NCBI RefSeq assembly: GCF_039596395.1
Contig: NZ_JBCNJT010000002.1
Span: 1,302,001 to 1,366,000 of the forward strand
DNA: 64,000 nucleotides
Direction: 5' to 3'
Origin: Fluviicola sp.
Lineage (GTDB): Bacteria > Bacteroidota > Bacteroidia > Flavobacteriales_D > Crocinitomicaceae
Position numbers and translations under genes: made by a program. The notes beneath the pieces are model-generated. The model was not told the origin of the DNA and did not search any database. It saw only the letters and a program-made list of their open reading frames with translations. Every line of letters starts with the position of its first letter. Position 1 is the stretch's first letter. Positions 1,416 to 11,177 of this stretch are shown here, in pieces.

Positions 1416-2495
1416 TTATTTTTTCTTCGATGACTTATGCGAGATCTCAAACTTCCCGATTTTCACGAAAAATCCGCCTTTTTGAGTTTCCGTTGCTTTT
1501 CCGGTCTGGAAATCTACCGGCGTTTTGGTTTTCTCCGAAAGTGTATTGGTAATCAGCGGAATCGGGTTTTTCATGTTCGAACCACCCGTGTTGGAGGCTA
1601 AATCTTTGCTTGGAGCTTTGTTCACGTCTTCATTGAAAGTCGGTGCAACCGGCTGTTTGTCGTCTTTAACCTGCGGCAAAATCGTCGGGTGGTGCGGCTG
1701 CGGCTTATTTTCTGCAAGCGGATTTTTCTCCGGTTCAGGCTGCACAGGAACCAGCTGGTCTGTGTTCTTTTTCTCTTTTTGGTTCGGAACCGGACGCTCA
1801 TTCGATTGCGAAGCTGCATGGTTGTTTCCGTTTCCGGGTGCCGGATTGCTTTTCTGCGCTACGTACGTGTCATTCTCCCCGATTGATTCGATTGCAGGAA
1901 CCACATTTGCAGGTTTCTTGTGATCCGTTTTACCGGAAGAACCTTTTTTATCTTTCTTGTTTTGAGCAAAAGTGTCCGCAGTTGTTTCCTTCGTAGAATT
2001 GTTATTGAATCCTAATTGGAAGAACAAAAGAAGGATGGCAGCTGCAGCGGCAATTCCACCGATCATTTTCCATGGAATCAGCGTTACTTCTTTTTCTTTC
2101 AGGTCTTCTTTGTTCGGGTAAACCACTGCTACCGGCTGTAAACGTGTTTCGCGGTAAGCTGCAACTACTTTTTGCGCTTCCGGATGAATCGCTAAATAAC
2201 CGTCGAATAATTTTTCTTCGTTGGCAGAAAGCACCTGTTCCACTTTTCCGATCGCAAAATACTCCAGGTTTTCAGGAGTAACGATCGAAAGGTCTTCCTT
2301 TTTGAGTAAGCATTTTTGAAGCGGGTCCATTTTTTCCGGGGTGTCGTCCAGGAAAACCAATTCTTCGTCTACCTGTAATTCCGGGTTGGCAGCAAGGAAC
2401 TCTTCAAACGCAATACGTTCCTCTTCGGAAAGCGTTCCTTCCAGATAATCCAGGTAAAAGGATTCGTAATTGTCGGTATGAATGAGTTTTTTCAT
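1416..2495 (-). CDS. Single-pass membrane anti-sigma-like protein
   Basis: A 359-residue protein that partners the ECF sigma factor encoded just upstream; the ATG overlaps the sigma stop codon as ATGA at 2495-2492, so the two are translationally coupled. The N-terminal half is cytoplasmic by inference and holds two similar helical hairpins (SEEERIAFEEFLAANPELQ near residues 23-41 and SANEEKLFDGYLAIHPEAQ near 90-108), the pattern of zinc-less Bacteroidota anti-sigma domains; the HxxxCxxC zinc motif of classical ZAS anti-sigmas is absent. A membrane segment follows at about residues 144-163 (IGGIAAAAAILLLFFQLGF). The rest, about 195 residues, is a Lys/Asn/Pro/Gln-rich disordered periplasmic tail without a recognisable domain. 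Anti-sigma role is inferred from context and fold pattern. Confidence 0.75.
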   Translation of the reverse strand: MKKLIHTDNYESFYLDYLEGTLSEEERIAFEEFLAANPELQVDEELVFLDDTPEKMDPLQKCLLKKEDLSIVTPENLEYFAIGKVEQVLSANEEKLFDGYLAIHPEAQKVVAAYRETRLQPVAVVYPNKEDLKEKEVTLIPWKMIGGIAAAAAILLLFFQLGFNNNSTKETTADTFAQNKKDKKGSSGKTDHKKPANVVPAIESIGENDTYVAQKSNPAPGNGNNHAASQSNERPVPNQKEKKNTDQLVPVQPEPEKNPLAENKPQPHHPTILPQVKDDKQPVAPTFNEDVNKAPSKDLASNTGGSNMKNPIPLITNTLSEKTKTPVDFQTGKATETQKGGFFVKIGKFEISHKSSKKK

Positions 2496-2977
2496 GCTAC
2501 TAATTCTGTTGATTTCAGGTAGTTCTTCAAGGTCTGACGGGCTCTAAAGATATACACTTTTACCTGTGATTCGTTCAGGGCCGTAATTTCTGCTATTTCA
2601 TTGTAATTGTATCCTTCGTAGTCTCTCAGCAAAATGACGGTTTTTTGAATTTCCGGCAATTTGTTTACTGCTTCCTGCAGGGTTTTCTGAACGTCGAACA
2701 AATGGCTCAGCGGATCATCCTGTTTCACTTCCTGACTTTCGAAGCTGGTGGTGCGTTTTTCTTTTTTCAGCATGTCCACCATTTGATGGTAAGCTGTGGT
2801 GAATAAATAAGACTTCACTTTGGAAGCCTCGATCGTTTCATGTTTTTCCCAAACCTTTGCAAAAGTTTCCTGGATGATATCTTCGGACAACATCCGGTTT
2901 TGGGTGTGTTTGACTACAAACCGATAAAGATTATCAGCATACAATTCAACTGCCTCATTGTATTCTCTTCTTGTCAT
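2492..2977 (-). CDS. ECF-type RNA polymerase sigma factor
   Basis: 161 residues, the normal length of an extracytoplasmic-function sigma-70 factor. Region 2 is recognisable in residues 1-75 (EDIIQETFAKVWEKHETI, then SYLFTTAYHQMVDMLKKEK), and region 4 in residues 100-155 (LPEIQKTVILLRDYEGYNYNEIAEITALNESQVKVYIFRAR), giving the helix-turn-helix for the -35 element. It heads a two-gene operon with the membrane anti-sigma protein (4-bp overlap). The 138-bp gap to the divergent gene at 3116 should hold its promoter; a TAACTTTA sequence at 3015-3022 (minus strand) resembles the -7 box but departs from it at the last base. Regulon not visible here. Confidence 0.93.
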   Translation of the reverse strand: MTRREYNEAVELYADNLYRFVVKHTQNRMLSEDIIQETFAKVWEKHETIEASKVKSYLFTTAYHQMVDMLKKEKRTTSFESQEVKQDDPLSHLFDVQKTLQEAVNKLPEIQKTVILLRDYEGYNYNEIAEITALNESQVKVYIFRARQTLKNYLKSTELVA

Positions 2978-3115
2978 GTAGTCGTTTAACAGTGGTAAGA
3001 CTATTTGGTACGGATAAAGTTACAGCAGAAAATGATTTTTTTTGAAAAAAGTTTCGAAGCCTTTGTTTTATAGTGAGTTGAAAGCGTATTATTGTAGTGA
3101 TTTAACAAAAAGCTT

Positions 3116-3562
3116 ATGAAACTTGTAGCAGTACTTCTTTTCACTTTCTTCGGATTTTCAACGGTAAAAGCACAATGTGACGCCGATGTCCGTGAAGCTT
3201 TCGGTGGAGTTGCTTCCATCACGATTTACAACACTTATCTGACTATCGGTGCCATTGCTGATGCACATGTGAATGCGGTGTATGATGCGGACCGCGTGAA
3301 AGAATTAATGGGTGAACAAACCGCGATGCTGCAGTCGGTGATCGATATGCTTGAAAAATGCAAAGTGGCGAAAAGCAACGGACTTTCTGCAGATGATGTG
3401 GAATACGTAAAAGATTTGATCGCCTGTCTTCAGTCCTTAAAAAAAGAGGCGCAGGGATTGAGCGATTATGTTATAGACCAAAATGCGGATGCTCAAACGC
3501 GTTACAATACCAACCGGGATAAGGCCTGGGACCAGATAAAAGCTTTGATGGGATTGGAATAG
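3116..3562 (+). CDS. Small secreted helical protein of unknown function
   Basis: 148 residues starting with a clear Sec signal peptide (MKLVAVLLFTFFGFSTVKAQ, cleavage likely after the Ala). The mature part is predicted mostly alpha-helical, with AHVNAVYDADRVKELMGEQTA and SADDVEYVKDLIACLQSLK segments and a Cys right after the signal peptide plus two internal Cys (EKCKVAK, LIACLQS). No domain is recognised. It is divergent from the sigma/anti-sigma operon and precedes the TonB-CTD array by 100 bp, but nothing shows it works with either. Confidence 0.65.
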   Translation: MKLVAVLLFTFFGFSTVKAQCDADVREAFGGVASITIYNTYLTIGAIADAHVNAVYDADRVKELMGEQTAMLQSVIDMLEKCKVAKSNGLSADDVEYVKDLIACLQSLKKEAQGLSDYVIDQNADAQTRYNTNRDKAWDQIKALMGLE

Positions 3563-3662
3563 TAGGAAAATAAGCCCTTCAATAAACCAGAAAGACAGTT
3601 GCCATTTTCTGTATTCCGATTGTTTCGGAAAAACACTACTATTGAAGTTAAACAGACTGCTT

Positions 3663-4040
3663 ATGAAGTTCTTTCTGATATTCTTTTTGATGGTTAGTCC
3701 GACCGCTTTCGCACAGTATGAACGCTATGTTGACCCGGAAGAACCTGCGCAATTTCCTGGAGGTTACAAGGAATACAGTAAATTCGCCAGAGCCAACTTT
3801 AATTATCCTCCGGATGCTATTGAAAAAGAACTGACCGGGAGATGTTACGTTTCTTTTACGGTTAGCAAAGAAGGAATTTGTTCGGATTTCGTCGTAAAGA
3901 AAGCGATACCGGATTGTCCGTCGTGCAATGCAGAAGCTTTGCGGCTTTTAAAATTAATGCCCCCCTGGGAACCTGCTAAATTGAATGGAAAGCCTATTGA
4001 GAGTAAGTTCACTCTTCCTGTTGTTTTTACCCTTGAATAA
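3663..4040 (+). CDS. Secreted TonB C-terminal-domain protein (array member 1)
   Basis: About 125 residues from the ATG at 3663. An in-frame TTG lies at 3642, but the ATG start gives MKFFLIFFLMVSPTAFAQ, a signal peptide matching those of the following paralogues, so 3663 is preferred. The single folded domain resembles the TonB C-terminal domain (EPAQFPGG, FNYPPDAIEKELTGRCYVSF, LKLMPPWEPAKLNGKPI). Unlike a true TonB it has no N-terminal membrane anchor followed by a Pro-rich spacer, so coupling to ExbBD is not expected. Three Cys recur in the family: one in GRCYVSF and two in DCPSC. First of five tandem paralogues in the same direction; role unknown. Confidence 0.8.
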   Translation: MKFFLIFFLMVSPTAFAQYERYVDPEEPAQFPGGYKEYSKFARANFNYPPDAIEKELTGRCYVSFTVSKEGICSDFVVKKAIPDCPSCNAEALRLLKLMPPWEPAKLNGKPIESKFTLPVVFTLE

Positions 4041-4048
4041 CAGATGTC

Positions 4049-4777
4049 ATGAAGTTCTTATTGTTTTTCTTTTTGATAGTGGGATTCCATGCATTTGCAC
4101 AAGATACACTTTGTGATAATCCCGATGAAGCGGCTCAATTTCCAGGGGGATCGGGTGCTTTTAAAGCATTTATCGACAAGAACCTAATTTATCCCGAGGA
4201 ATCATTGCAATACGAGGGGCTTTGTTTTGTGAGCTTTCTTGTTTGCGAAGATGGTACTTGTCAGAATTTCAAGGTCAGCCACGGTGTTTCAGATTGCCCC
4301 GATTGTGATCGGGAAGCGATCCTGATGCTACAATTGATGCCGAAATGGAAACCGGCATTGCGAAATGGAAAACCTGTTCCGGTTAAGCACAGTGTTAAAA
4401 TTGTTTTCAGGTTGCAGGATGTCCTGGTGTCGGAAGGGATTGTGGAGAAAAAGAGGAAAGTAGCTATTGATAATGAAACACCTGCTGAATTTCCGGGTGG
4501 AACACCGGCTTTGAATCGTTGGCTTGGTGAAAATATGCATTATCCGCAGGAGGCTTTGGATTATGGGCTTACGGGAAAATGTTATGTGAAATTTGTGGTT
4601 GGAGCAGACGGTGTCTGCCGTGATTTTAAAATTCTACGTGGAGTTAGGGATTGTTTGAGCTGCGATCTGGAAGCTTTGCGCCTGTTTAGTATCATGCCCA
4701 AATGGAATCCTGCTACGAAAGAAGATAAGCCCCTTGAAGTATCAATGCGTGTTGCAATTACTTTCAAATTGAATTAG
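4049..4777 (+). CDS. Secreted protein with two TonB C-terminal domains (array member 2)
   Basis: 242 residues with signal peptide MKFLLFFFLIVGFHAFAQ. Two copies of the array domain follow in tandem, about residues 20-124 and 137-242. Each has the FPGG turn (AAQFPGG, PAEFPGG), the YPEESLQ/YPQEALD helix, the G-x-C-[YF]-V-x-F strand (GLCFVSF, GKCYVKF) and the D-C-x-x-C motif (DCPDC, DCLSC), ending in KPALRNGKPV and NPATKEDKPL. Extra Cys are present near each third strand (EDGTCQNF, ADGVCRDF). It lies 8 bp after array member 1, so the array is likely one transcript. It looks like an internal duplication or fusion of two single-domain members. Confidence 0.85.
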   Translation: MKFLLFFFLIVGFHAFAQDTLCDNPDEAAQFPGGSGAFKAFIDKNLIYPEESLQYEGLCFVSFLVCEDGTCQNFKVSHGVSDCPDCDREAILMLQLMPKWKPALRNGKPVPVKHSVKIVFRLQDVLVSEGIVEKKRKVAIDNETPAEFPGGTPALNRWLGENMHYPQEALDYGLTGKCYVKFVVGADGVCRDFKILRGVRDCLSCDLEALRLFSIMPKWNPATKEDKPLEVSMRVAITFKLN

Positions 4778-4803
4778 ACTTTCTATCTTTAAAAAACCAT
4801 CGT

Positions 4804-5241
4804 ATGAATATGAAACAAATTTTATTGGCCTTTTCGCTCCAGTTCGTTTGTGGAATTGCTTTTTCACAGGAACCACCGGCTTTGACTGAGCCCGTGAAAG
4901 TTGAAAAGACCGAAGAACCCATTTACGGAGTAGTGGATGAGCCGGCTGTTTTCCCAGGAGGAAACGAAGGAATGACGAAGTACATCAAAACGAACCTGCA
5001 TTATCCGCAATCTGCTAAGAAAGAAGGAATTGAAGGAGAATGCTATGTGGAATTTGTGGTAAGTAATAGTGGTTATGTCTCTTGGGTAAAAATTAGAAAA
5101 GGAATAACAGATTGCCCGGAATGTGAAATGGAAGCGGTTAGGGTCGTGAAGAATATGCCGCGCTGGACACCCGGAAAAATAGCAGGAAAACCTGTGAACA
5201 GTATGTTTGTGCTTCCCATCATTTTTGATCTGAATAATTAA
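4804..5241 (+). CDS. Secreted TonB C-terminal-domain protein (array member 3)
   Basis: 145 residues; signal peptide of about 21 residues ending GIAFSQ, a short linker rich in Pro, Glu and Lys, then one TonB-CTD domain from about residue 46 (EPAVFPGG, HYPQSAKKEGIEGECYVEF, DCPECEMEAVRVVKNMP, WTPGKIAGKPV). Start could also be the Met two codons on (MKQILLAF), which would not change the mature protein. The Cys pattern GECYVEF plus DCPEC is kept. Closest in sequence and linker style to the next gene. Confidence 0.83.
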   Translation: MNMKQILLAFSLQFVCGIAFSQEPPALTEPVKVEKTEEPIYGVVDEPAVFPGGNEGMTKYIKTNLHYPQSAKKEGIEGECYVEFVVSNSGYVSWVKIRKGITDCPECEMEAVRVVKNMPRWTPGKIAGKPVNSMFVLPIIFDLNN

Positions 5242-5248
5242 TTCATTC

Positions 5249-5665
5249 ATGAAAAAATTAGTGATAATCTCGTTCCTGCAACTTATATGTGGAGTTGCTT
5301 TTTCGCAGGAACCTGTTAAAGCTCCTCCCGCTCCTAAAGAGGAAATAATGTACCCGGTTTTGGATGAACCCGCTGAATTTCCGGGAGGAATGTCGGCATT
5401 AAAGGAATACCTGAAAACAAACGTAAAGTACCCGGAATCTGCTAAGGAAAAGGAGATTGCGGGGAAATGTTATGTGCAATTCATAGTGAATGAACTCGGA
5501 GATGTCGCCAATGCCCAGGTGAAAAAGGGAGTAATAGATTGCCCGGAATGTGACAAGGAGGCGGTTCGGATCGTGAATACCATGCCGCGATGGACACCAG
5601 GTAAAATAAAAGGAAAACCAGTAAAGAGTACATTTACACTTCCAATTATTTTTAAACCTGAATAA
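5249..5665 (+). CDS. Secreted TonB C-terminal-domain protein (array member 4)
   Basis: 138 residues, 7 bp after the preceding member. Signal peptide MKKLVIISFLQLICGVAFSQ, brief Pro/Ala/Lys linker, then one domain: DEPAEFPGG, VKYPESAKEKEIAGKCYVQF, DCPECDKEAVRIVNTMP, WTPGKIKGKPV and a final strand LPIIF. The domain is nearly the same as in member 3, which argues for recent duplication. No membrane anchor or lipobox is visible, so the product is expected in the periplasm or outside. Function unknown. Confidence 0.83.
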   Translation: MKKLVIISFLQLICGVAFSQEPVKAPPAPKEEIMYPVLDEPAEFPGGMSALKEYLKTNVKYPESAKEKEIAGKCYVQFIVNELGDVANAQVKKGVIDCPECDKEAVRIVNTMPRWTPGKIKGKPVKSTFTLPIIFKPE

Positions 5666-5671
5666 CTGGCT

Positions 5672-6115
5672 ATGAAAAAATTAGTGATACTTTCCCTGTT
5701 ACAATTTATTTACGGACTATCTTTTTCACAGACAGATCCCGAACCATTACCTGCATCCAAACAAACAAGCCCTCCGCCAAAAGCTGTCCCGAAACAAGCA
5801 TCATCTGTGGAAGCAAAGGAACTTGTTTATGATACGCCTGAAGAACCGGCGGAATTTCCGGGAGGAACAAGTGCGTTAAAAAAATACATAGCTGAGAATT
5901 TAAAGTTTGAGGGAAGATGTTATCTTCAGTTTGTTGTTCTGGAATCGGGAGAAATTACGGATATAAAAGTAAAAAAAGGGGTTACCGATTGTCCGGAATG
6001 TGATGAGGAAGCTGTTCGGTTGATCAAATCCATGCCGAACTGGAATCCGGGTAAGCTCAACGGTAAACCGGTTAAAAGCCTTTATAGTCTTCCTGTTATT
6101 TTCAAATTAAACTAG
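5672..6115 (+). CDS. Secreted TonB C-terminal-domain protein (array member 5)
   Basis: 147 residues, 6 bp after member 4. Signal peptide MKKLVILSLLQFIYGLSFSQ, then a longer Pro/Lys/Ser-rich linker (about residues 21-50), then the domain: EEPAEFPGG, a shortened helix region, GRCYLQF, DCPECDEEAVRLIKSMP, WNPGKLNGKPV. The stretch between FPGG and GRC is about 7 residues shorter than in the siblings because the YPxxA helix is replaced by NLKFE. Its last 9 bases overlap the 3' end of the convergent phosphatase gene (6107-6115). Confidence 0.83.
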   Translation: MKKLVILSLLQFIYGLSFSQTDPEPLPASKQTSPPPKAVPKQASSVEAKELVYDTPEEPAEFPGGTSALKKYIAENLKFEGRCYLQFVVLESGEITDIKVKKGVTDCPECDEEAVRLIKSMPNWNPGKLNGKPVKSLYSLPVIFKLN

Positions 6116-8053
6116 TTTAATTCCCATCACACAGACGTCATCTGTCTGTTCGTGGTTTCCTTTCCAGTTCTCAAATTCTTCTTTTAAGGAAGCTTTGAGC
6201 TCAGCACCGCTTTTGTTCCGGTGAGCCTGGATAAAATCCCGGAAAGTCGCATACTTGTATTTCTTATTTTTCGGCCCGCCGAATTGATCTGCATACCCGT
6301 CTGAGAACAAAATGATCCAGTCGTTTGCTTCGAGTTGTATTTCATGGGTTGTAAATGGCTTCGCTCCGTCAAACTGTCCCACCGGCTGTTTATCCGGTGC
6401 GGTAACCAAAATCTCTTCTCCGCGGAAAATCCACAACGGATTGTTGGCGCCTGTCCACTGAAGCATCTTCGTTTCGTGATTGAAGCATCCCAGCGAAATG
6501 TCCATGCCGTCTTTGACCGAGCGGGCTTCTTTAGTGAGTGTTTGAACAACCAGTTCACGGACCTGGTCCAGTAATTCCCCGGTTCTTTGATGCGGATTCA
6601 AAGCCAGTGACTGGTACAAAGCGTTGATGCATAACACGCTTACCATTGCTCCCGGAACCCCATGTCCGGTGCAATCTGCCACCGCGAACCAGCTTAGGTG
6701 CCCCCGTTTTTCAAACCAGAAGAAATCCCCGGCGATGATGTCTTTGGGAGCGTAATAAACAAATGCATTTTCATCGAAACTAGCCTGAATCTCTGATTCC
6801 AGGGGTAAAAGTGCCTGTTGAATAAAACGCGCATATTGGATACTTTCCACGATTTCATGGTTCTTGGATTCTACGATGAGCTTTTGTTCCTGCAACTCGT
6901 GTGTACGTTCCACCACTTTTTCTTCCAGGTTTTCATAGGAAAGCCGCAACTTCTGCATCATGGAATTGAAGTTCTTCGAGAGTAAATCCAGTTCCAGGCT
7001 TCCGGTAATTTCGATGCTTTGGTCCAGGTTGTCGGTTGAAATGGTTTCTGTTTTCAGTGCCAGTTGCTGGATGGGTTTTGTCAATTTGCGTGAACGGAAA
7101 TAAACAATAACTGTCAGTATCACCAGAGTCAACCCGAAAATGACGCCGAAACGAAGCAGCAGGTCGTTGATGAGGTTTTGATAGGGGAGGTCATTTGTTC
7201 CCAATTCCAGTACATACCCGGAATACAATTTCGATTCCAATACCGGGAGGAACACATATTCGGTGAATTCCTTTCCTTTGGAAGCCGGGTTGTCATTCTC
7301 AATGATGACATTTTTTTTCTTGTCCAGGCATTGGAGATAGGCTTTTTGCAGCCTGGGATCTTTGATGGAAATGTCAGGGATATTCTTTACGCCCAAATAC
7401 AATTCAACCCGGTCAATGGCTTCGAACCGTTTGTCCAGGCTGCGGATTTTGGAAAGCAGGAGTTGTTTGAACTCGTCGGCTGATTTGGAATAAAAGCCCA
7501 GTTCAATGATGTGTTTTCCATCAGGCGAGGTTTGGTAGCTGTATTTTTTGATTTTTCCGGTCTTGATCTCCAGTCCGAAACGGTCTTCCTTGAACTTTTT
7601 GGATCGGAAGATCTGGTTGAAAAAAGGAATGAAGGTTTGATTGAGCTTTTTGAAATCAAGCCCGAGATCGGGTTTGAAAGTGGTATTGACAATGCGCAGG
7701 TTCCGGTCTATGAGGTAAATATCTTCGCGTGCCGGGTCCATCCCGAGAGAAGATCGTAAGCTGTTAAGGTCAACCGTTTTTGCGTTTTGCCGGGTCAATA
7801 CGGATTGAATTTCACCGGAAACGTTTTGCATGCGCTGGATCAGGGATTGTTCGTGCGTGCGCATGGAAAAATCGTAGTATTCGATCAGATTCCGCGTTTC
7901 CTCCACAATGTTTTTCTTTTGCTGCTGAATGTCGTTTTCAACTTTGTCGAGATTGTATTGGTAAGTCAGGTAGAAAACGGTGGAAAAGATCAGCAGCACC
8001 GGAACAAGAATGTTCACCAGTAGTTGCCGCAGGATACTTTGTTTCGTTTTCAC
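6107..8053 (-). CDS. Membrane receptor with HAMP and SpoIIE-type PP2C phosphatase domain
   Basis: 648 residues, predicted Ser/Thr protein phosphatase signalling protein. Order: membrane segment about 11-31, a periplasmic sensor region of about 265 residues, second membrane segment about 298-318, HAMP domain about 320-372 (KPIQQLALKTETISTDNL), a coiled-coil linker, then the SpoIIE/PP2C domain about 420-648 with AGDFFWFE, VADCTGHGVPGAMVS and the SDGYADQFGG metal-site motif. The start codon is GTG (8053); no in-frame ATG precedes the first membrane segment, so GTG is the likely start. SpoIIE-type phosphatases usually act on anti-sigma-factor antagonists, but no STAS or anti-sigma kinase gene is in the window. 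Tail-to-tail overlap of 9 bp with the TonB-CTD array. Confidence 0.88.
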   Translation of the reverse strand: MKTKQSILRQLLVNILVPVLLIFSTVFYLTYQYNLDKVENDIQQQKKNIVEETRNLIEYYDFSMRTHEQSLIQRMQNVSGEIQSVLTRQNAKTVDLNSLRSSLGMDPAREDIYLIDRNLRIVNTTFKPDLGLDFKKLNQTFIPFFNQIFRSKKFKEDRFGLEIKTGKIKKYSYQTSPDGKHIIELGFYSKSADEFKQLLLSKIRSLDKRFEAIDRVELYLGVKNIPDISIKDPRLQKAYLQCLDKKKNVIIENDNPASKGKEFTEYVFLPVLESKLYSGYVLELGTNDLPYQNLINDLLLRFGVIFGLTLVILTVIVYFRSRKLTKPIQQLALKTETISTDNLDQSIEITGSLELDLLSKNFNSMMQKLRLSYENLEEKVVERTHELQEQKLIVESKNHEIVESIQYARFIQQALLPLESEIQASFDENAFVYYAPKDIIAGDFFWFEKRGHLSWFAVADCTGHGVPGAMVSVLCINALYQSLALNPHQRTGELLDQVRELVVQTLTKEARSVKDGMDISLGCFNHETKMLQWTGANNPLWIFRGEEILVTAPDKQPVGQFDGAKPFTTHEIQLEANDWIILFSDGYADQFGGPKNKKYKYATFRDFIQAHRNKSGAELKASLKEEFENWKGNHEQTDDVCVMGIKLV

Positions 8054-8128
8054 GAGGGTGAATTTATGGAAATAGTTGAAGCGGGAACGATTTATGTCCT
8101 TTTATCGGTAATAAATAAGGCAAATGCA

Positions 8129-8156
8129 GTAGGGACGCGATCCGTCGCGTCCCTAC
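8129..8156. repeat. 28-bp perfect palindrome, GTAGGG family (copy A)
   Basis: Two perfectly complementary 12-base arms, GTAGGGACGCGA (8129-8140) and TCGCGTCCCTAC (8145-8156), around TCCG. It starts 10 bp past the stop of the 8166-11177 minus-strand gene. There is no T-tract, so it is more like a REP-type element than a standard terminator, though it could act as an mRNA 3' end. Related copies are at 39597, 51273 and 52512. Confidence 0.85.
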
Positions 8157-8165
8157 GCAAGATTG

Positions 8166-11100
8166 TTATTCATATTTCACACTCCGCGTTTTCATCCACA
8201 AGTTCACCAGCGGGATATCGAAGTATACGCCGAGATAAGCACGCCACATACCAAAATGTTCATCTTTCCGCAAAACTTCTTCTCCAGTATCAACCTGTTC
8301 AGTTATAATGCGTCTAACCTTGGGAGTATATTGATATCCCAGCTGTACGGTCAAGGGTGTTTTTGGAATTGCCATTCCGATGTTGAACCCCGGACTGATG
8401 AATTGCTCCCACTTAAAGGATTGGTCCAGTACATTTTCTGTGTGGCTCATGCGGTAACTTACCACTGCTCCGATATCAATAGCAGTAAGAGTAAAGCTTA
8501 AGCTCGCATTCGTACGTTTGTAGAGGTTTTTTCGTTTTATTTTTATATAATCCGGGTTTTCTTTGGCCAGATCCGGAAGCCGGGAAGTATTGTAGATTCG
8601 CTTACCGAATGTTTTTGTATAAGTGATGCCAATTGGTGCTGAGATTCCGTAATTCCAGGCACAACTGGTAAAACCATCATCCTTTCTTTTTGCATTTAAA
8701 AAACCTGCCGTTTCAAATCCGACATAAGGCCCGGCAAAGGCATTCAAAGTCAGGGAGTGCCACGAATTGCGTTTTTGTTTGTAAGATCCCGGAGGAAGTG
8801 CATAAGATTCAATCACTTTCTTAAGTTCTTTCTCATTATCGGATAATGCAACATCATTTAGAAAAGAAGCCAATTTCATAATCATTTGCATGGCTTTTTT
8901 GTCGGAAGAAATTATTGCTTGGGCAGCTATACTGTTTACCGGGAATTGGATAAATGAACTATCAGTATGACGTCCTCCCCAGTTTTTCCTATTTTTAATA
9001 AGGTAATCTAATGCACTTTTGTTCATTTTGTTTAAAAAGCGATCTATTCGTTTTTTCTCCCACTTATGTTCACCCTTTTTTAGTGCTATTGCTAAAGTAT
9101 CTTTATTGAGTTTTAAATATTTTAGATTGCCGATATTTATAATGTTTTGTGGAGAGATCGAAACCACAATATCTCCCTTGTTTAAGTGCCGTGCAATTTT
9201 CGGGAACTTCTTAGATTTCACGCGCCGTTCTATAAAATAGTTATCAAGAGTACTAATGTCTATACGGTAATTTCCAGCACTTTTTGTTTTTGGGTTCAAC
9301 GCAATTAAAAAAGGAGAATCTCTATGATAATTGTTTGTATCAACTATCAGGTATTCATTATAAATCAAACTATCCACTAGCTCTAACGTTTTTGATACTG
9401 CACCAGCATAATTTTTTTCAGATAGTAAATGATAGATCTCGAATGCATCATCTGCCCGGTCGAGGTATTTTTTGTAAACAGATTCTTTTCGCGTTGGAAG
9501 AGACGATCTTACTACCTGACTGATTAGCTGCCAGGTATTGTATCCGTCAAAAAGAACCGTTTCCCCTTTATCTCCTTTCCTGGATTGTTCAACCTGTTGC
9601 ATGATCTTGTCAAACTGGCTTAAAGCCAGCATGGTGTTCCCGATCCATTTGGCAATATCCTTTTTATGGTCTTTGGTGATCTTATGCTCGAACTTCTGCA
9701 AAAACAGTTTATCGATGCTGTTTGAATATTTCATGTTTAGCAATTCCAGCATGATTTCCAATTGACCAAAAGGCATGGAGTTGATTTCTTCATACGTCAG
9801 GTTTCTTACGGAAGCATTGTTGACGATATAAAGCTCATTAGACACAGCATAGAGGAAAGTAATAATGCTATCCGGGAAATTGTCTATTTGTGTTGGATCA
9901 TCCAGGTTCCGCTTCAAATAAAGTTGTTTGATCAGATCCCGGTAGGAAAGCCGGTTACTCACCAATTCACCTATTTCCCAGGAAATACAGGTTAGATCCA
10001 GGTACTTCTGCTGTTCTTTCGGGATGCGTTCTTTGATCCATTCGCTGCTTAGGATATTTTTAGGCAAATGAACGAAGTCTTTCGACAAAGCATATTTCCA
10101 TGCAGAACCCATGTTTGGAGCATCAAAGACTTCGGAAGACTGTATTAAGTTCATAGTTTCAGGAAAGGCGGTCATAATTAGTTCGTAGCGTTCGGTATTG
10201 TTTCGCATCTGGTCGAAAAACCATAACACAGTTTCCTGTTTTACACGGGAAGCAATATAAGTAGCTACTGCATCTATCATTTCAGCTTCCGAAGGCATTT
10301 TCCAACCGGAAACCGAACCTGCTGAAGATTCCATGAGTGATATGGTTATTTGAGCATTTTGTTGTTGGATTGTATTAATTCTATTACCAAATTCTGTAAT
10401 AAATGCTTTAACGTTATTCCAGTTCATTTTAATTCCAAGCAAATTATCTTTCGTTGAATCAACCTGGCTATTGAAAATAGCAAGTGCTTCTGAATCAATG
10501 TTCTTTTTTTCTTGTTGGATAGAATCTTGCAAATGAATAAGAAGCGCATAATTAAATTTGATAGAATCTGTGCCGTCAATGCTTTTAATTAAGGCTTTCG
10601 TATAATTCTTATCCCCTAGAATTATTTCGTCGAATTTGATCGAATTATGGAGTGAAATTTCTTCAACTTTTATTTCATTAGTTATGTTTTGAAGAATATT
10701 CTCGGCTTTTTGGAGGACATCTCGATTTCTCTTATTAAGTGTGTCCTTTTTTTGGAGAGCGATAACCGTTGTTTGAGTTGAATTTTTCCAATCGAGTATT
10801 TTTTTTACTTTAATCGAATCTGAAACGAACTGAGCTGTATTTTGTAAACTATCTAGTAGTGTTTCCATAACAGTAGAACCTTCTATCATCTTCTTAATTT
10901 CATAAGGTTCATCAGTCCCTGCATAGTAACAAAGCTTTGTTAGAATTTTTTTTGCCTCCAAAATCTTTACAGAATGAGGAATTTTAAAAAAACTATACAT
11001 GTCCTTTGCAAGATAATATGCGTTAATGGGGACTGTGTCACTTTCTTTTGGAGGTTTGGCAAGATCCTTACCGACCTGAGCGTATCCCGAAAGGCCAAAA

Positions 11101-11177
11101 AGCATTACAAAAAAAGAGAATAACAGGATTTTTACGGTTCCATCCTGGGAACCTCGTGAATAGAAGTTTGGTTTCAT
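8166..11177 (-). CDS. Large secreted protein with helical body and C-terminal beta-barrel-like domain, unknown
   Basis: 1003 residues. A signal peptide lies at about 15-34 (ILLFSFFVMLFGLSGYAQ). Residues about 90-290 are rich in Lys, Asn, Gln and Ile heptads and probably form coiled coil; residues 300-800 are mainly helical with no domain recognised. The last about 170 residues alternate hydrophobic and polar positions with aromatic ends (GPYVGFETAGFL, YGISAPIGITYTKTFG, SLSFTLTAIDIGAVVSYRM, FGMWRAYLGVYFDIPL), the look of an outer-membrane beta-barrel or a beta-sandwich. It does not end in a T9SS tail. The gene is monocistronic, flanked by a palindrome (3') and the accC terminator (5'). Function not assigned. 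Confidence 0.7.
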   Translation of the reverse strand: MKPNFYSRGSQDGTVKILLFSFFVMLFGLSGYAQVGKDLAKPPKESDTVPINAYYLAKDMYSFFKIPHSVKILEAKKILTKLCYYAGTDEPYEIKKMIEGSTVMETLLDSLQNTAQFVSDSIKVKKILDWKNSTQTTVIALQKKDTLNKRNRDVLQKAENILQNITNEIKVEEISLHNSIKFDEIILGDKNYTKALIKSIDGTDSIKFNYALLIHLQDSIQQEKKNIDSEALAIFNSQVDSTKDNLLGIKMNWNNVKAFITEFGNRINTIQQQNAQITISLMESSAGSVSGWKMPSEAEMIDAVATYIASRVKQETVLWFFDQMRNNTERYELIMTAFPETMNLIQSSEVFDAPNMGSAWKYALSKDFVHLPKNILSSEWIKERIPKEQQKYLDLTCISWEIGELVSNRLSYRDLIKQLYLKRNLDDPTQIDNFPDSIITFLYAVSNELYIVNNASVRNLTYEEINSMPFGQLEIMLELLNMKYSNSIDKLFLQKFEHKITKDHKKDIAKWIGNTMLALSQFDKIMQQVEQSRKGDKGETVLFDGYNTWQLISQVVRSSLPTRKESVYKKYLDRADDAFEIYHLLSEKNYAGAVSKTLELVDSLIYNEYLIVDTNNYHRDSPFLIALNPKTKSAGNYRIDISTLDNYFIERRVKSKKFPKIARHLNKGDIVVSISPQNIINIGNLKYLKLNKDTLAIALKKGEHKWEKKRIDRFLNKMNKSALDYLIKNRKNWGGRHTDSSFIQFPVNSIAAQAIISSDKKAMQMIMKLASFLNDVALSDNEKELKKVIESYALPPGSYKQKRNSWHSLTLNAFAGPYVGFETAGFLNAKRKDDGFTSCAWNYGISAPIGITYTKTFGKRIYNTSRLPDLAKENPDYIKIKRKNLYKRTNASLSFTLTAIDIGAVVSYRMSHTENVLDQSFKWEQFISPGFNIGMAIPKTPLTVQLGYQYTPKVRRIITEQVDTGEEVLRKDEHFGMWRAYLGVYFDIPLVNLWMKTRSVKYE

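Follow-up and report, generated by a model that had tools for sequence, protein, structure and literature searches.

It is an open question how dozens of receptors share a single motor-driven TonB, and the Bacteroidota depend on such receptors. A 64,000-nucleotide stretch of Fluviicola sp. DNA (the window, C2:1302001-1366000 within a 4.6 Mb genome) raises the question of what TonB tips might do there when nothing ties them to the motor: between positions 3663 and 6115 it carries an array of five plus-strand open reading frames, which we call T1 to T5, encoding short proteins built around the TonB C-terminal domain (TonB_C). The evidence is strong that these are TonB C-terminal domains without an anchor, akin to the tip of the cell's own TonB1, a protein encoded directly after exbB-exbD-exbD on contig C4 and equipped with an N-terminal membrane segment and a proline-rich linker.

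The five frames are intact and lie 8, 26, 7 and 6 bp apart, in agreement with an earlier sequence-only reading of this DNA that had described five adjacent secreted genes at a spacing of 6-26 bp. T1 (3663..4040) encodes a 125-residue product with a signal peptide and one TonB_C domain at about 3738-4034; its start was taken as ATG 3663, not TTG 3642, because the signal peptide starts at the former. T2 (4049..4777) carries a signal peptide followed by two such domains, T2a at about 4124-4414 and T2b at about 4475-4771. T3 (4804..5241), T4 (5249..5665) and T5 (5672..6115) each encode a signal peptide and a single domain, at about 4936-5229, 5363-5656 and 5840-6109, respectively. All five proteins score above the cut-off of the Pfam model TonB_C (PF03544; 46 to 89 bits against 24.6, E values of 7e-12 to 4e-25), with two matching stretches in T2, so that the six domains and the two-domain second member of that reading are borne out; these matches are far above chance. 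With the NCBIfam model tonB_Cterm (TIGR01352, threshold 27.1 bits) T2, T3 and T4 lie above the threshold and T1 and T5 slightly under it, at 25.9 and 26.5 bits. Two details of the same reading fared less well. It had given all six domains FPGG and GKPV turns; FPGG stands, and is also found outside the array, but in place of GKPV there is GKPI in T1 and DKPL in T2b. It had also called the third and fourth members nearly alike, yet T3 and T4 are only 56% identical.

Each of the five proteins begins with a short basic and hydrophobic stretch that ends in [AS]-x-[AS]|Q, as judged by eye and with a regular expression, an ending described for the majority of Bacteroidota substrates of signal peptidase I (PMC5837995). 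By this motif all five would be exported by way of a cleavable signal peptide, as had been claimed. We looked in the five proteins for a further membrane segment or a long spacer and found none. Only 9 to 38 residues separate the cleavage site from the first domain, too short a linker to span the periplasm; for TonB linkers a second source gives a median of 113 residues and, as a very short example, 40 (PMC12204202). The five proteins therefore have neither the uncleaved N-terminal anchor nor the proline-rich spacer of a membrane-anchored TonB, again as judged by motif. That the T genes are anchored TonBs with wrongly chosen starts was ruled out, since the frames upstream of the chosen starts bring no anchor, and lipoproteins were ruled out on reading the five signal peptides, none of which has a [GASN]-C lipobox. 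Nor is the array, on contig C2, linked to exbB or exbD.

The fold points the same way. An AlphaFold2 model of T4, built from 108 aligned rows, has a mean predicted local distance difference test score (pLDDT) of 86.1 and has the predicted fold of receptor-binding TonB tips: its closest solved structures are 9ddz (Z 11.6), TonB bound to FoxA (6i97_D, Z 11.2), E. coli TonB (1u07_A, Z 9.6) and TonB bound to BtuB (2gsk_B, Z 9.1). Foldseek agrees in matching the model to TonB tips, and a search of solved structures with the T4 sequence returned weak TonB matches only (E values of 0.14 and 0.86). The last strand, which in TonB pairs with the TonB box of a receptor, is kept in T1, T3, T4 and T5 and clearly differs from the usual in T2a and T2b. 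In the domain alignment T5 lacks nine residues, among them those of a short helix that the T4 model has at residues 63-67. Among domains of the genus, a subset picked from locus titles that may include a few near-genus rows, the last-strand columns are shared: L131, P132 and F135 are present in 24, 27 and 17 of the 28 anchored domains and in 26, 26 and 30 of the 31 short secreted ones.

The array domains are close kin of TonB1. T3, T4 and T5 are 58%, 63% and 68% identical to the TonB1 tip of their own genome and 56 to 69% identical to the TonB1 tips of the genomes compared; for the domains of T1 and T2 the corresponding figures are 43 to 45% and 41 to 48%. Across nine genomes the TonB1 tips share 78 to 99% identity among themselves, and the array domains of this genome and of four relatives (G158, G161, G160 and G046) reach no more than 79% identity with any TonB1 and no more than 77% with one another. 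In a tree of 55 domains rooted on TonB2, the second anchored TonB of the genome, 19 array domains and eight TonB1 tips group together (support 86/90), apart from TonB2 and from a set of longer secreted proteins described below; this tree replaces an earlier one of 90 domains, which had too few columns and left many forks open. The array is not recovered as one clade (two changes; a single clade in 11% of bootstrap trees). By eye, T3 to T5 have signal peptides that resemble one another and also those of array genes in G158, G161 and G046, which points to descent of the array members from an already secreted gene, rather than to repeated fresh capture from TonB1, as the probable history.

The cysteines of these domains had suggested a specialised module. 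One cysteine in the first strand (G-x-C-[YF], hereafter Cys-1) and both cysteines of a DCxxC motif are indeed invariant in the six aligned array domains, as had been noted; T3, T4 and T5 have these three, and in the T4 model Cys-1 lies in the first long strand and DCxxC at the start of the following helix. A fourth cysteine, after the hairpin turn, had been missed: it is present in T1 (whose cysteines are C61, C73, C85 and C88), T2a and T2b, and T2a has further Cys besides. Outside the array of this genome it is carried by one gene each in G046 and G157 and by one in G163 that lacks Cys-1; this lineage forms one group in the tree (93/93). The fourth cysteine marks the T1/T2 lineage, as far as the sequences compared go, and one other domain elsewhere (L170) has a cysteine at the same column.

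The three shared cysteines are a different matter, because TonB1 itself has all of them. We counted cysteines in 291 different TonB_C domains, after dropping repeats and hits under 40 bits or about 70 residues; the sample is biased, many loci having been fetched with patterns that include DCxxC. Anchored TonBs were defined in this census by a GAYxxR N-terminus, which we take to be a motif of anchored TonBs and which is also seen in exbBD-linked genes here. All three cysteines occur in 36 of 58 anchored domains (CxxC in 53) and in 27 of 83 short secreted ones (CxxC in 43, none of the scored cysteines in 33), Cys-1 occurs together with CxxC in 77 of 78 domains, and 13 polytopic proteins of the M56 type have none of the scored cysteines. 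Within the genus subset, the first cysteine of DCxxC is found in all 28 anchored, 29 of 31 short secreted and all 26 long secreted domains, the second in all 28, 30 of 31 and all 26, and Cys-1 in 15 of 28, 23 of 31 and 4 of 26. A cysteine motif specific to the array is ruled out by these counts, and conservation of the cysteines extends well beyond it. By alignment, the three cysteines are inherited features of this group's TonB tip and not of the array, and since they are present in the powered TonB1 and in other anchored tips they give no argument for a dedicated metal or thiol module, an idea of the sequence-only reading that is weakened accordingly; beyond the presence of the cysteines, a thiol or metal role for the array is not supported.

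The array is not unique to this genome. The same locus is found in a record of F. chungangensis (Fluviicola, Crocinitomicaceae, Bacteroidota), with flanking proteins 78 to 98% identical, and of 14 genus genomes 12 have at least one short secreted member in the stretches that were read, which cover part of the matches; those read from the other two, G010 and G162, which likewise cover part of the matches, held none. Short secreted frames also occur elsewhere in the phylum. A neighbouring gene for an extracytoplasmic function (ECF) sigma factor (2492..2977, minus strand) is divergent from the array and has an ortholog in all 14 genus genomes, at 89% identity or more in nine of them, this one included. 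Array genes lie near it in seven of these nine, where the count that the earlier reading had proposed gives five in this genome, three in G046, two each in G160, G158 and G163, and one each in G165 and G157. In G161 two array genes lie about 18 kb from the ECF gene, beside a SiaA-like gene, and in the 9 kb read of G010 there are no array genes. A larger array of short secreted TonB tips, including a two-domain gene, is found in another Fluviicola genome (G164:C5:40000-50000; L061/L230), and one of its copies has an in-frame stop (TAG).

Copies at this locus also change quickly. When this genome is compared with each of four relatives, even the array pair with the lowest nonsynonymous divergence (dN) has a value of 0.26 to 0.37; flanking genes range from 0.02 to 0.13. 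Synonymous divergence (dS) is saturated in nearly all array comparisons and some flanking ones, and fast evolution and birth-and-death therefore cannot be separated in general. One pair is close enough to be read: over the 119 codons of the mature part the G165 gene and the second gene of G160 are 92% identical, with a dS of 0.29, a dN of 0.051 and a ratio of about 0.18, and this orthologous pair is under purifying selection. The G165 gene has a signal peptide like that of the first G160 gene and a body like that of the second, the pattern that a deletion between tandem copies would leave, and a sign of turnover. The earlier proposal of an expanded set kept by tandem duplication thus stands as regards variable copy number and content among relatives and at least one member under purifying selection, and falls as regards near-identity of T3 and T4. 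Taken together, the array looks like a birth-and-death family: copies of the tip of the cell's own TonB that are retained and change fast.

What could such proteins do? Our tentative answer, which we hold to be somewhat short of probable, is that, as exported and unpowered kin of the TonB1 tip, they bind the strands to which TonB1 itself binds, and so modulate transport. Signal peptidase would release the T proteins into the periplasm, where they would keep the TonB-tip fold and, in most members, the last strand; the kept fold and strand suggest that at least T1 and T3 to T5 still grip the kind of strand that TonB1 grips. Without reach to the ExbBD motor they would bind their partners without force, and since proteins with no anchor cannot pull, the effect to be expected is competition with TonB1 for the TonB boxes of some receptors, or pairing with the TonB1 tip, and hence modulation of uptake. 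The array may in this way act as an unpowered competitor of, or brake on, TonB1, and the set would tune or partition TonB1 among about 25 receptors (the genome has 25 Plug matches). Free decoys or adaptors had been proposed before, and the predicted receptor-binding fold favours them as the leading functional idea. We infer the binding partner, the direction of the effect and any role of the cysteines. Several observations weigh against this proposal. Given the changed last strands of T2a and T2b and the missing helix segment of T5, TonB-box binding may be limited to some of the members; the identity of T1 to T5 to their own TonB1 (43 to 68%), set against the high conservation of TonB1, fits a changed partner equally well; and no receptor gene was found near the array in the stretch scanned with Pfam (1416-11177).

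The main rival holds that the TonB tip has taken on a use apart from receptors and serves as an adaptor in the periplasm, either for another protein or for the cell wall; we regard this as rather unlikely but as deserving serious thought. SjdR of Anabaena would be a precedent (PMC8597729), the domains of T1 and T2 are only 41 to 48% identical to TonB1 tips and have the fourth cysteine, with changed last strands in T2, and in this genome TonB_C also forms part of an M56 protein and gives a weak match in a VWA-like one. T3 to T5, in contrast, are about as near to TonB1 tips as to each other, or nearer, and keep the last strand; no wall-binding domain was found by Pfam in the array proteins, and SjdR is a single gene of another phylum.

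A further possibility, to which we give little credence, is that the cysteines make the proteins redox or metal modules, through a switchable or intermolecular disulfide or a metal site. The near-invariance of DCxxC in the genus set, its position at a helix start in the T4 model and the almost exclusive occurrence of Cys-1 with CxxC would suit such a role, as would three DsbA-family matches in the genome (a search of the same genome for VKOR gave no match) and the intermolecular disulfides between periplasmic proteins of Bacteroidota, GldK with SprF and PorG, that have been described (PMC12635249). The same cysteines are, however, present in the powered TonB1 and so are not particular to the secreted set. 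A mixed disulfide with receptor TonB boxes was rejected: in the N-termini readable in seven of 12 receptor stretches (L259-L263, L265, L266) there is no cysteine in the TonB-box-like segment; in the other five stretches the longest frame belonged to an adjacent gene.

It is decidedly improbable that the array consists of spent duplicates of little function, drifting after tandem duplication. Rapid change in copy number and content, the high dN of the array relative to its flanks and the in-frame stop in G164 would fit drift, but the closest pair has a dN/dS of about 0.18, and Q-type signal peptides, FPGG, DCxxC, the upstream block and all five frames have been kept. The weakest alternative, that the array belongs to the regulon, or forms part of the sensing arm, of the ECF sigma factor and anti-sigma factor encoded divergently from it, we consider highly improbable despite the nearness of array genes to the ECF gene in seven of nine genomes, given that the G161 array lies about 18 kb away, that G010 has the ECF gene and its neighbour U with no array in the 9 kb read, and that the array has a similar upstream block of its own.

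Returning to unpowered competitors of TonB1, we can sketch a more elaborate version, which we offer as speculation with little chance of being right: natural, species-tuned free TonB tips, perhaps including the longer secreted set, would titrate the Ton system, each capping a subset of receptors or TonB1, with the cap locked or released by periplasmic redox through DCxxC and Cys-1. If true, redox-gated titration would be a regulatory layer on TonB-dependent transport, of which the literature searched gave no described counterpart.

The block upstream of T1 (3563..3662, plus strand) is similar in seven species, about TTGCnnTTTT ... GAAAAACAnTAnTATTG in an alignment of seven upstream regions, and is a possible promoter of the array. 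It resembles a Bacteroidota promoter; a sigma-70 scan of the region before T1 gave nothing above shuffled sequences. Directly before it lies U (3116..3562, plus strand), a 148-residue secreted protein with no known family in Pfam, which has the same place in several relatives and lies beside the ECF gene in relatives that include G010. A probable anti-sigma factor, with a weak NCBIfam match, is encoded at 1416..2495 (minus strand). On the other side a SiaA-like gene with HAMP and SpoIIE-type phosphatase domains (6107..8053, minus strand) is convergent with the array and flanks it in relatives. Beyond it, 8166-11177 encodes a protein of 1003 residues whose start looks like a signal peptide and for which neither Pfam nor NCBIfam gave a match.

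Elsewhere in the genome, six of the 14 matches to PF03544 belong to the array, two to anchored TonBs, four to secreted proteins 375 to 397 residues long and one to an M56-type protein, and one is a weak match, so that most TonB tips of this genome sit in exported proteins without a membrane anchor. There are two MotA/ExbB matches, one of them beside tonB1. The four longer secreted proteins form a second tandem set near exbB-exbD-exbD-tonB1 (L039:3153-7763; C4, about 369650-374260, minus strand), with TonB_C at the end of long N-terminal parts that have no confident known domain; CxxC is present in all four and Cys-1 is replaced, and similar sets are found in G046, G160, G161 and G163. TonB2 (L039:17861-18718) has a shortened tip with the DCESC cysteine pair only, a form that recurs in relatives. 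On contig C1 a secreted-looking protein of 563 residues (L041:1239-2930) has within it a weak match to TonB_C and, after this, a weak one to VWA. Two anchored TonBs thus stand against at least nine secreted TonB_C proteins unable to transduce energy as built, and counts of "TonB" by the TonB_C domain alone mislead; we note that databases label TonB_C-domain proteins "energy transducer TonB", as in several plasmid hits.

Searches of phages and plasmids with T4 gave no short secreted relative among the three of 24 matching records that were opened (H2, H9 and H15). These held a plasmid TonB_C protein in which a cysteine-rich N-terminal part precedes a hydrophobic stretch, a fragment of the M56 type and an anchored TonB. 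At L060:4249-5124 a TonB_C protein has a cysteine-rich N-terminal stretch (MEVKITKPCPEDW...) ahead of its hydrophobic segment, a different way of mounting the tip. LR756501.1, a 735 kb record of an uncultured phage, encodes at L270:1970-2770 a complete anchored TonB of the Bacteroidota type, with NKEYGSYVLRKKYG, a membrane segment, a proline linker and TonB_C, which is unexpected in a phage.

Lastly, the array may be set beside known systems. With the TonB energy transducer (PF03544; TIGR01352) the T proteins share the C-terminal domain, by hidden Markov model, by predicted fold and by close kinship to their own TonB1, but they have no anchor and no spanning linker, carry a cleavable signal peptide, occur in tandem copies and would not couple to ExbBD as built. 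The SjdR protein of Anabaena sp. PCC 7120, once named TonB1, is likewise TonB-like and too short to reach the outer membrane, whereas it is the product of a single cyanobacterial gene and has a role in septal peptidoglycan (PMC8597729). HasB and FusB are specialised TonB paralogs that resemble the array in arising by TonB duplication with shifted partners. According to a report on FusB, its tip pairs with itself and with cargo, and FusB is described there as an inner-membrane protein, unlike the secreted array proteins (PMC13253070). M56 (BlaR1-type) proteins of Bacteroidota with a TonB_C end, one of which is encoded in this genome, also carry the domain outside a powered transducer, yet with a metallopeptidase attached. 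The domain is thus well known, and the tandem secreted tip-only architecture recurs across the genus in many genomes, and also elsewhere in the phylum; a literature search found no description of secreted TonB-tip-only proteins in Bacteroidota, a weak test in that subscription journals are thinly covered. Howard et al. reportedly found in 2001 that synthesis of the E. coli TonB periplasmic domain inhibits transport by FecA and FhuA, a precedent for the competition proposed here. That fragment is an anchorless periplasmic TonB domain like those of the array but an experimental construct, of which the array would be the natural counterpart, and if free tips do compete with TonB, the array would offer a ready natural brake for direct tests of how TonB is shared.

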